A DNA stretch of 64,000 nucleotides, from the NCBI GenBank assembly GCA_026414605.1, contig JAOAIP010000041.1:62001-126000 (forward strand), written 5' to 3'. Position numbers and translations under genes: made by a program. Positions 27,812-32,243 of the stretch are shown one piece after another. The notes beneath the pieces were generated by a model, which saw nothing but the letters and a program-made list of their open reading frames with translations, made no database searches and had not been told where the DNA came from. The stretch's first letter is position 1. Each line of letters starts with the position of its first letter. Source of the DNA: Bacteroidia bacterium. Its GTDB lineage: Bacteria; Bacteroidota; Bacteroidia; B-17B0; Aurantibacillaceae.

Positions 27812-28567
27812 TTACTTTTTCACTCCCAGTAATATCAACCTTTCAGAAATTTCAATATCAAAATCATTTAGGGAATAATCTCCCCAAGTAGATATTATGC
27901 CTATCTTATTCCTATCAAACTCTCTTTCAAAAAAACTCTTCGTTAGTAACCTAACTCTTTCTAAATAATTAAATTTATTGTTACCATCTATAACCTGTAT
28001 GTGTTTATAAACAAATCCTTTTTTTATTTCTCTTTTTATTTCAAACACAATATCATCCACCAATTTTGTTTCACGTGGAACTAAATTTTTATTTAAATAA
28101 TTAGCATTTAAAAAGTCAATGAGAATAAGTCCCGATTTCTTTAACGAATTAGACATCACTTTAATTGCTTTTTCTTCTTCATAAACATAATCAAAATATC
28201 CTATGCTTGTAAATATATTAATCGCAAGGTCAAAATAATTTAAATAAAACTCCCTTCGCATATCGTGAATAAAAAAATTCAAATTCGGCAATTGAAAATT
28301 AGATTGAGCAAATTGTATATTGGAATCACAAATATCTGTGCCTATAACATTAAAACCCTTTTTAGCAAAAATATAAGCGTGCCTGCCATTTCCACAAGCA
28401 TTATCCCAAATCAAAGAATTTGGCTTTATATTTACTTTTTCTATAAAATTAGAAATAAAAAACTCTGCTTCAGAAAAATCTCTGTTCTTGTATAAAATAT
28501 GGTAATACTTTGAGTTAAACCAATTTTTGAACCACTCATTGCATACTAATTGTTCCATGTGAAACAT
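27812..28567 (-). CDS. Class I SAM-dependent methyltransferase
   Basis: About 251 aa from ATG 28567; ATG 28585 (overlapping the upstream stop) and ATG 28558 are alternatives. The N-terminus WFNSKYYHILYKNRDFSEAE is typical of a Bacteroidota methyltransferase group, followed by the SAM motif IWDNACGNGRHAYIFAKKG, VIGTDICDSNI and the post-motif INIFTSIGYFD. The target is unknown. It is the last gene of the mnmG-methyltransferase-hydrolase run. Its first codons coincide with a parS-like site (28551-28566) and a second such site (28067-28082) lies inside it. Confidence 0.8.
   Translation of the reverse strand: MFHMEQLVCNEWFKNWFNSKYYHILYKNRDFSEAEFFISNFIEKVNIKPNSLIWDNACGNGRHAYIFAKKGFNVIGTDICDSNIQFAQSNFQLPNLNFFIHDMRREFYLNYFDLAINIFTSIGYFDYVYEEEKAIKVMSNSLKKSGLILIDFLNANYLNKNLVPRETKLVDDIVFEIKREIKKGFVYKHIQVIDGNNKFNYLERVRLLTKSFFEREFDRNKIGIISTWGDYSLNDFDIEISERLILLGVKK
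28067..28082 (-). other. parS-like site 1
   Basis: On the minus strand AGTTCCACGTGAAACA, 15 of 16 positions matching the chromosomal parS consensus TGTTNCACGTGAAACA bound by ParB. It lies within the methyltransferase gene. Confidence 0.6.
28551..28566 (+). other. parS-like site 2
   Basis: TGTTCCATGTGAAACA, one mismatch (position 8) to TGTTNCACGTGAAACA. It spans the start region of the methyltransferase gene. Confidence 0.6.
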
Positions 28568-28568
28568 T

Positions 28569-29519
28569 TTATTTTTTAATAACAAATCCTACAATATTTG
28601 GAATTAAATCTTTTGATAAAGGCAAATTAGGATCTTTATATGTTTCAGTATTTAATTTTTTATCATTAGGGGCATCTACTAAAATATGATTCATATTTGG
28701 GATAAATTTTAATTCAGCATCTTTTTTAAAAGATTTAAGGCGATTAGCATCTGATATAGAAATTTGTATATCGTTTTCACCTTGAATAATCAATGTTGGG
28801 ATATTAACTTTTGACAATTCAACAGCAGGATCAATACATAAAAATGATATCATATAGTTTTGTACAGATTCTCTAAAAAGAAAAGATAACATAGGGGGAA
28901 CATTATCTACTCTTTTACCCTTGGATAGAGAATCAATAATTGGGAAAATAATTTTTTTTGCATTTTCGTGTAAGTTAGACAATTGTCTTTTAATAATTGT
29001 ATCTCCCCTAAAGCCCATTCCATTTAATAAAATCAACTTTTTTACTTTTTTAGTTTTTTGAGCAGCCAGGGTTGAAATTAATGCCCCTTCACTATGCCCA
29101 ATCAAAACAAAATTTTTGAAATTATATGGTGGTTTTGAAAAATAATCTATCCAAAGAAGCAGGTCATTAACATAAGAGTAAATATTTAAACTATCTTCTG
29201 AAGCGAGATCGTCTTTACTTTTTCCAACTCCTCTTTTATCAAAACGAAATGTGGATATGTTATGATCTGATAAACTATCCGCTAACTTCATTAAATAATT
29301 ACTTTCTACACCAAAATCATTATTACCATTTCTATCTGTAGGACCAGATCCAGGGTGAATAATACAAAGTGTTTTATTATTTTTTAAAATCAAACTCCCA
29401 TACAAACTATCAGGATAAGTATAAATTGCTATTTCTTTTTCAACTATATTTTGTGAAAACAGATAGAATGGAAATAAGAAAATAAACAAAATTTTAATGT
29501 GAAACTTTTTGTAACACAT
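28569..29519 (-). CDS. Exported alpha/beta hydrolase
   Basis: 316 aa. An N-terminal hydrophobic signal (IKILFIFLFPFYLFSQ) suggests export. The alpha/beta-hydrolase elements are HPGSGPTDRNGNN (oxyanion region), FRFDKRGVGKSK, the nucleophile elbow LIGHSEGALIS, IQGENDIQI with the acidic residue, and the late NMNHILVD with the catalytic His. Related Bacteroidota proteins are annotated as esterases or peptidase-like hydrolases; the substrate is not predictable. Its start overlaps the preceding methyltransferase by 26 bp, within the mnmG operon. Confidence 0.82.
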   Translation of the reverse strand: MCYKKFHIKILFIFLFPFYLFSQNIVEKEIAIYTYPDSLYGSLILKNNKTLCIIHPGSGPTDRNGNNDFGVESNYLMKLADSLSDHNISTFRFDKRGVGKSKDDLASEDSLNIYSYVNDLLLWIDYFSKPPYNFKNFVLIGHSEGALISTLAAQKTKKVKKLILLNGMGFRGDTIIKRQLSNLHENAKKIIFPIIDSLSKGKRVDNVPPMLSFLFRESVQNYMISFLCIDPAVELSKVNIPTLIIQGENDIQISISDANRLKSFKKDAELKFIPNMNHILVDAPNDKKLNTETYKDPNLPLSKDLIPNIVGFVIKK

Positions 29520-30369
29520 AAATTAAACTTGAATATTCATTGGTTTTAATAGCAGAAAGATTGGATATAAAACCTCTATACATTCCTTTCAAAAACGGGA
29601 AAGAATTTTCTTTATATTTTTCCGAAAGAATAGACACATAAAAAGAATCAAAATACATTGGTTGGATTGTCAATAAATTAAATTTATTTTTTGTAAGATG
29701 GATTATATCTTTTTTTGTGAAATGAAACAAATGTCTTGGTACATCATAACCTGCCCAATATTCTTTATAATATCTTGCATCACAACTATTTCTATTTGGC
29801 AAAGCCAAAATTAAAAACCCTTTCTCTTTTAATAATTTTTCTGATTGACTAATAAATTCATCAGGATTATATAAATGCTCCAATACGTGCCAAAGCGTAA
29901 TTACATCAAATTTTTTATTCAAAGCAAAAATATCAGAAAGAGAAGAGAACACATTTAATTTTTTGCTTAATGCCACTTCCCTTGCTCTTTGACTTGGCTC
30001 TACTCCATAAGATTCAAAACCTTGTTTTTTAGCAGATTCTAAAAAATACCCTGTTCCACAACCAAAATCAAGAATTGTTCCACATGGAACATTTTGCTTA
30101 ACTAAATTTACTTTTTGTAAAACCGTATACTTTCTTACTAAATGATAAATTTTTTCAAAAAAGGTTTGTTTTGTGTCGGAATGAGAAATATACTCGTTTG
30201 ATTCGTAATATCCGCTTATTCTATCTTTTTGGGGATAAGGAAAAGTTTGCCAAAGCCCACATTTCTTACACTCAACTATATTAAAATTTTCTTTTGATAC
30301 AGTGTAATCCTTACAGGTATTAACATTCTTATATTCATTATTTTTACATATAGGACAAATAAAGTTCAT
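29494..30369 (-). CDS. Zn-ribbon plus class I SAM methyltransferase
   Basis: 291 aa. The N-terminus has CPICKN and CKKCGLWQTFPYPQ, a zinc-ribbon-like pair, followed by a Methyltransf_23-type domain: ILDFGCGTGYFLESAKKQG (given in part), GVEPSQRAREVA, ITLWHVLEHLYNPDEF and ALPNRNSCDARYY. It begins 8 bp after the mnmG stop, so it is co-transcribed. The residues just before motif I (NVPCG) are encoded by the third parS-like site (30076-30091). The substrate is unknown; relatives often act in surface glycan loci. Confidence 0.85.
   Translation of the reverse strand: MNFICPICKNNEYKNVNTCKDYTVSKENFNIVECKKCGLWQTFPYPQKDRISGYYESNEYISHSDTKQTFFEKIYHLVRKYTVLQKVNLVKQNVPCGTILDFGCGTGYFLESAKKQGFESYGVEPSQRAREVALSKKLNVFSSLSDIFALNKKFDVITLWHVLEHLYNPDEFISQSEKLLKEKGFLILALPNRNSCDARYYKEYWAGYDVPRHLFHFTKKDIIHLTKNKFNLLTIQPMYFDSFYVSILSEKYKENSFPFLKGMYRGFISNLSAIKTNEYSSLIYVLQKVSH
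30076..30091. other. parS-like site 3
   Basis: TGTTCCACATGGAACA; the minus strand reads TGTTCCATGTGGAACA. Two mismatches to TGTTNCACGTGAAACA, with the palindromic outer GTTCC/GGAAC retained. It lies within the zinc-ribbon methyltransferase gene. Confidence 0.45.
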
Positions 30370-30377
30370 TATCTTTT

Positions 30378-32243
30378 TTATTTAATGATTTGCATTAAAA
30401 GGATATTTATATCGGCGGGTGAAATACCTGAAATTTTAGATGCTTCTTCTATAGTAGAGGGTTTGAATCTTTTTAGTTTTTGACGGGATTCGTTACTTAA
30501 AGATGGAATTTTATCATAATCAAAATCAGGATTAATTTTAAAGTTCTTCCATTTGTTAAGTCGTTCTACTTGTTCTTTTTCTCTTTCAATATAATCATCG
30601 TACTTTACTAAAATTTCTGCTTGAAATATAGATTCTTCATTTTTAGTTGACAAAAAATTTCTCAAAACCTCATCATATTTAGCCATTTCCCTTAAACTAA
30701 CATTTGGTCTTGATAATATATTTTCGTATCTTATCTTTTGTTCAAGTGGGGCAGAATTTATACTTTCTAAATAGGAATTAATTTTTTCAGGAATTGCTGA
30801 GTTTGTTTTTAAGAAATTTATAACCTCTTCTGTTTCTTTAATCTTTTTTTGAACCTTATCATACCTTTCTTGACTTGCCAATCCTATTTTAAAAGACAAC
30901 GGCGTTAAACGAATATCTGCATTATCTTGTCTTAATAATAATCTGTATTCTGCACGAGAGGTAAACATTCTGTATGGTTCGTCAGTTCCTTTGTAAACCA
31001 AATCATCAATTAAAACCCCGATGTATGCTTCGTGTCTTTTTAAAATAAACGGTTCTTTCTCGTTAATTTTCAAATGGGCATTTATACCTGCTATTATACC
31101 TTGAGCAGCGGCTTCTTCATATCCTGTAGTGCCATTAATTTGACCTGCAAAATATAAATTTTCAATAAGTCGTGTCTCTAACGTAGGATAAAGTTGGGTA
31201 GGGGGGAAATAATCATACTCTATAGCATATCCAGGGCGAAACATTTTAGCATTTTCAAGGCCTGGTATTTTTCTTAATGCTTTGTATTGAACATCTTCGG
31301 GTAGGGAAGTAGAAAAACCATTTAAGTATACTTCAACAGTATTCCATCCTTCGGGCTCTATAAATAATTGATGTCTTTCTCTTTCGGCAAAACGAGTAAT
31401 TTTATCTTCTATACTTGGGCAATATCTTGGTCCTAATCCTTTGATTCGTCCGCTAAACATTGGGGATTTATCAAAGCCCGTTTCCAAAATTTGATGGACT
31501 TCTTTGTTAGTATATGTGATAAAGCAGGGCAGTTGTTTTTCTAATGGTTTAGTAATATCTGAAAAGGAAAATTTAAATTCAGGCGGATCGCCATCTTGTC
31601 TTTCTAAAATAGAGTAGTTAATTGTACGGCCATCAATTCTTGGCGGTGTTCCTGTTTTCATTCTGCCGCTTTCAAATCCTAAACTTACTAATTGTTCGGT
31701 TAACCCTTTGGCTGCTGGTTCGCCTGTTCTTCCTCCGCCAAATTGTTTTTCTCCGATATGAATAACTCCATTCAAAAAAGTTCCATTAGTGAGAACTACT
31801 GCTTTTGAATAAAAACGAACGCCCATTCCTGTGATAACACCCAATACTCTTTTATCCTTCACAATAAGTTCTTTGACCATATCTTGCCAAAAATCAATGT
31901 TGGGGGTTTGTTCCAACATTTCACGCCATTTTGCTGCAAAAAGCATTCTGTCGTTTTGAGCCCTTGGGCTCCACATTGCAGGACCTTTACTTCTATTGAG
32001 CATTCTAAATTGAATGGCAGATAAATCTGTAACAATGCCTGAATAGCCACCAAGAGCGTCTAATTCACGTACTATTTGTCCTTTGGCTATGCCCCCCATT
32101 GCAGGATTACAACTCATTTGTGCAATGGTTTGCATATTCATTGTAATAAGTAGGACTTTTGAACCGAGATTAGCAGCGGCAGCGGCGGCTTCACAACCCG
32201 CGTGACCAGCCCCTACTACAATAACATCGTAATTAAATTCCAT
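30378..32243 (-). CDS. mnmG: tRNA uridine-5-carboxymethylaminomethyl modification enzyme MnmG (GidA)
   Basis: 621 aa, normal length. With MnmE it installs the cmnm5 group on U34 of tRNAs reading split-box codons. Seen: the FAD-binding [18 protein letters not shown], the conserved [60 protein letters not shown], and the C-terminal helical domain ending [12 protein letters not shown]. Starts at ATG 32243. It leads a run of four genes (mnmG, methyltransferase, hydrolase, methyltransferase) with overlaps or single-digit gaps. gidA lies near oriC in many bacteria. Confidence 0.96.

Follow-up and report, generated by a model that had tools for sequence, protein, structure and literature searches.

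Three 16-bp palindromes clustered within about 2 kb in the analysed window (the whole stretch of 64,000 nucleotides) are, judged from the DNA sequence and its comparison with relatives, very likely chromosomal parS sites at which ParB would nucleate and load. The earlier note had read them as the ParB loading centre of this chromosome, and that reading is supported by a cluster unique in the genome, by exact copies of the motif beside mnmG in relatives, and by a genome that encodes a parS-type ParB together with ParA. In other species, the helix-turn-helix domain of a ParB dimer reads the 16-bp palindrome, and the dimer then closes as a CTP-dependent clamp that slides into neighbouring DNA; the ParA ATPase moves the ParB-coated region, and the origin region is thus segregated first. 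In the present genome, ParB would bind and form CTP-dependent clamps at the three sites, which would lie close to the origin. Elements of this kind are already known, and the sole unusual part of the cluster is a shift in the core of its sites.

A motif scan with TGTTNCACGTGAAACA reproduced exactly the coordinates and mismatch counts (1, 1 and 2) previously claimed for the three 16-mers, all on the minus strand. The first site (28067 to 28082; AGTTCCACGTGAAACA on the minus strand and TGTTTCACGTGGAACT on the plus strand) has an intact CACGTG core and lies inside the gene for MT2, a SAM-dependent methyltransferase (27812 to 28567, minus strand); it differs from TGTTNCACGTGAAACA at one position on the minus strand and at two on the plus strand, and its single mismatch to the palindromic form falls at the outer end. 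The second (28551 to 28566; given as TGTTCCATGTGAAACA, TGTTTCACATGGAACA on the minus strand; 1 mismatch to TGTTNCACGTGAAACA) has the core CACATG and overlaps what is probably the start codon of MT2 (ATGTTTCACATGGAACAA, translated as MFHMEQ), the mechanical open reading frame beginning at a TTG at 28585. The third (30076 to 30091; given as TGTTCCACATGGAACA, TGTTCCATGTGGAACA on the minus strand; 2 mismatches to TGTTNCACGTGAAACA) has the core CATGTG and lies inside the gene for MT1, a class I SAM methyltransferase (29494 to 30369, minus strand) whose named relatives are all from Bacteroidota and just 39 to 49% identical. Each of the three is one mismatch away from the palindromic TGTTYCACGTGRAACA. 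An alpha/beta hydrolase gene (28569 to 29519, minus strand) stands between the second and third sites as a bystander, and MT1 adjoins mnmG (gidA; 30378 to 32243, minus strand; TIGR00136, 852 bits), a conserved neighbour of the cluster. The proposed adjacency to mnmG was thus confirmed, with the sites in a three-gene run downstream of it on the minus strand. The statement that the sites lie inside protein-coding sequence held for those at 28067 and 30076 and failed for the one at 28551 to 28566, which sits at the very start of MT2, over the probable ATG.

We then evaluated how often such 16-mers would be expected. Allowing one mismatch, TGTTYCACGTGRAACA matched three times in the window against an expectation of 0.01, and none of 100 shuffles reached three matches. 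A loose scan of the window with TGTTNCACGTGAAACA at up to 3 mismatches gave 7 strand-matches versus 2.43 expected from shuffles and, taken alone, is therefore only mildly unusual. Pattern searches of the whole draft genome (2.48 Mb, 76 contigs, 96% complete) returned five places with at most 2 mismatches, and three of the five, including both 1-mismatch places, were this cluster; by palindromic form, the three cluster sites were the best of the five. The reversed-pattern control gave 5 matches over the same genome. Of the observations that the earlier note said would refute its reading, a scatter of equally good matches and a better cluster elsewhere were both absent from the genome-wide scan of the 2.48 Mb, and the best match in the 40 kb around parAB had 3 mismatches.

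The motif recurs well beyond this genome. Within the family, TGTTYCAYRTGRAACA was present in 44 of 61 genomes at 1 to 4 copies (control pattern, 1 genome), usually grouped in some 2 kb of DNA next to mnmG and a methyltransferase gene; MT1 adjoined the parS sites in all 29 family loci read, and mnmG fell within the 3-kb locus in 22 of them. Across the phylum, 224 of the 297 genomes carried TGTTYCACGTGRAACA, against 1 with the control pattern, and mnmG was at most 1.5 kb away in 23 of the 30 loci read. The link is not universal, since six distant loci had no mnmG match in the roughly 10 kb read on each side; in a seventh locus without a nearby mnmG, the site was 545 bp from the contig end. Our searches of the open literature turned up no earlier account of an association between parS and mnmG in Bacteroidota, a result that does not prove it undescribed. 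In loci from other Bacteroidota families (L175 to L203), parS sites cluster immediately upstream, rather than downstream, of mnmG, and two of these loci (L196 and L202) carry 2 to 3 copies at a spacing of about 46 bp. Two metagenome-assembled genomes labelled Chryseobacterium gleum (L039) and Cryomorphaceae BACL11 (L043) share the same site offset and the same gene layout, and one of the two labels is probably wrong.

These comparisons bear on two other explanations. One is that the 16-mers arose by chance or from methyltransferase codons (VPHGT before the ILDFGCGTG motif, and MFHMEQ at the start). Two sites are indeed within coding sequence and the third is over a start codon, and genus members agree at 14 of 16 positions of the MT1 site, a level that about 13% of windows in that stretch also reach. 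However, the expectation of 0.01 matches per window, the near absence of control patterns from family and phylum genomes, and the exact motifs that relatives carry elsewhere, on either side of mnmG, speak against it. Among 92 sites measured relative to mnmG, 43 were upstream, 48 downstream and 1 inside; position and host gene vary while sequence and neighbourhood persist, so coding constraint is not the explanation. We regard this alternative as largely refuted and give it hardly any credence. The other is that the sites are operators of a local transcription factor for mnmG or the methyltransferase genes, as might be suggested by the motif lying 20 to 160 bp upstream of mnmG in several lineages. 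But the sequence is the parS consensus, its several copies extend over up to 2 kb, and in the family to which this genome belongs the motif is downstream of mnmG. ParB can itself repress nearby genes, and such repression would not make the sites a different element. An operator function in place of parS is accordingly extremely improbable.

The reading as parS sites also calls on the partition proteins. The sole ParB above cut-off in the genome (TIGR00180, 203 bits, C60:89092-89613) is directly preceded in an operon by parA, whose product matches PF13614 (231.6 bits). The earlier note had proposed locating parAB and dnaA; both were found on contigs other than that of the cluster (dnaA on C13), so adjacency to partition genes cannot serve as support. 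The ParB can be aligned to solved structures of ParB/Spo0J and Noc. It carries GERRFRA, the motif region that serves CTP binding in ParB, and its DNA-reading residues are GKQRSTVAN and GHAR. Arg173 and Gly201 (Caulobacter numbering) separate parS readers from Noc proteins (PMC7383237); the corresponding residues here, Arg (GKQRS) and Gly (GHAR), are of the parS type. Noc binding sites were considered and rejected, because the equivalents of Gln173 and Arg201 are absent; the Noc chains 7ng0 and 7nfu read GKGQS and ERHAR.

The CACGTG core is missing from two of the three sites, which counts against the parS reading. We compared three orthologous positions in three members of the genus (G000, the genome studied here, and its relatives G019 and G012). 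Among these nine sites, six had CATG-type cores (CACATG or CATGTG), one had CTCGTG (G012, MT1 position), one was decayed (G019, 28067 position), and only the window site at 28067 kept CACGTG. The second site has an orthologue in both readable relatives, identical in G019, and its spacing of 484 bp from the first is the same in G012; the third has orthologues in both, with differing cores. Elsewhere in the family, the CG core was present in 45 of the 47 exact-pattern sites read. No site was found in a further genome of the genus, G002, which is 85% complete. The loci of the genus relatives (L025, L026, L108 and L109) combine mostly CATG-type parS cores with CpG depletion: observed/expected CpG was 0.75 to 0.80 in the genus (longer stretches) versus 1.00 to 1.16 in three family relatives. 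Mutation pressure may therefore suffice to explain the core shift, which may be simple CpG erosion.

The same depletion, together with the retention of CACGTG at just 1 of 9 orthologous sites and the loss of one site in G019, could also suggest a relic cluster, with sites decaying in the genus while ParB loads elsewhere or segregation proceeds independently of ParB. However, the host proteins share only 55 to 66% identity, yet 8 of the 9 sites are at most 1 mismatch from the palindromic consensus; ParB is intact and unique in the genome, and the genome has no other cluster. We consider a relic very unlikely and retain the reading as active parS sites. Under that reading, the site at 28067, with its intact CACGTG, is predicted to be the best binder of the three, and the two CATG-core sites would either bind more weakly or be tolerated by the ParB of the genus. 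A bolder version, in which the preference of the genus ParB has shifted or relaxed at its parS centre and CATG-core sites act as full-strength centromeres, unlike in P. aeruginosa, is possible but doubtful. The recognition helix reads STVAN in the two genus ParBs, and T replaces the A in the other 28 family ParBs. We dropped this residue as the cause of the CATG core: ParBs from other phyla read VAN as well, so the A by itself cannot be what causes the core shift. The genus-wide change of core nevertheless offers a natural experiment on the coevolution of parS and ParB.

Cumulative GC skew in relatives with long contigs gives moderate support to a position of the cluster near the replication origin. 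The distance between cluster and skew trough was 16 kb in G055, 47 kb in G008, about 71 kb in G019 and 82 kb in G004; G019 has a further low of nearly equal depth at the cluster itself. The cluster of G005 coincided with a local trough, though the stretch ended lower. In the genome studied here, the skew of the 128-kb contig merely flattened near the cluster, with no clear trough, and a DnaA-box scan of that contig revealed no convincing cluster. The dnaA gene of G008 is on the same contig as its parS cluster, 1.1 Mb away. That of G019 (G019:C7:149606-150989) is in two pieces, with a stop or frame break in a draft assembly. Since parS clusters of Bacteroidota are often anchored at mnmG even where parAB and dnaA are far away, this neighbourhood could be a practical guide to the origin in draft genomes. 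For this uncharacterised Bacteroidota chromosome, the cluster described here marks the likely segregation centre and, roughly, the origin region.

A search of this genome (96% complete), limited to SMC and ScpB, found no SMC above cut-off and no ScpB. As SMC and ScpB were not detected, ParB here probably works without a classical condensin, and the loading centre probably serves ParA-driven segregation rather than SMC-ScpAB loading. Where SMC and ScpB are absent, the question arises of what the ParB-parS complex recruits.

Compared with known systems, the cluster shares with chromosomal parS clusters a 16-bp palindrome, several copies in 2 kb, its standing as the sole cluster of the genome, and a canonical ParA-ParB pair, the chromosomal consensus being quoted in PMC10197239, after Livny et al. 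2007, as TGTTTCACGTGAAACA. It differs from them in that two of the three sites have changed the core CG to TG or CA and in that parAB is not adjacent. Hi-C of gut bacteria, two Bacteroidetes among them, placed parS clusters at the origin with no consistent link to dnaA, and known condensins were not found in the two Bacteroidetes (PMC10197239). These two, Bacteroides caecimuris and Muribaculum intestinale, resemble the present case in belonging to the same phylum, in having dnaA as an unreliable marker and in lacking a detected known condensin; their cluster positions were drawn from Hi-C, skew and coverage, whereas ours come from sequence alone, and mnmG goes unmentioned in that paper (PMC10197239). 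A parallel for differences among the sites is the hierarchy of perfect and imperfect sites parS1 to parS10 in P. aeruginosa, where parS1 and parS4 have an outer-end mismatch and still bind with high affinity, and where the core matters for affinity, the core-diverged parS5 being bound worst (PMC4368675). The site at 28067 resembles parS1 and parS4. In P. aeruginosa, however, CACGTG is retained at the sites near the origin, and sites with a diverged core are weak and do not suffice (PMC4368675), whereas here core-diverged sites make up most of the cluster.
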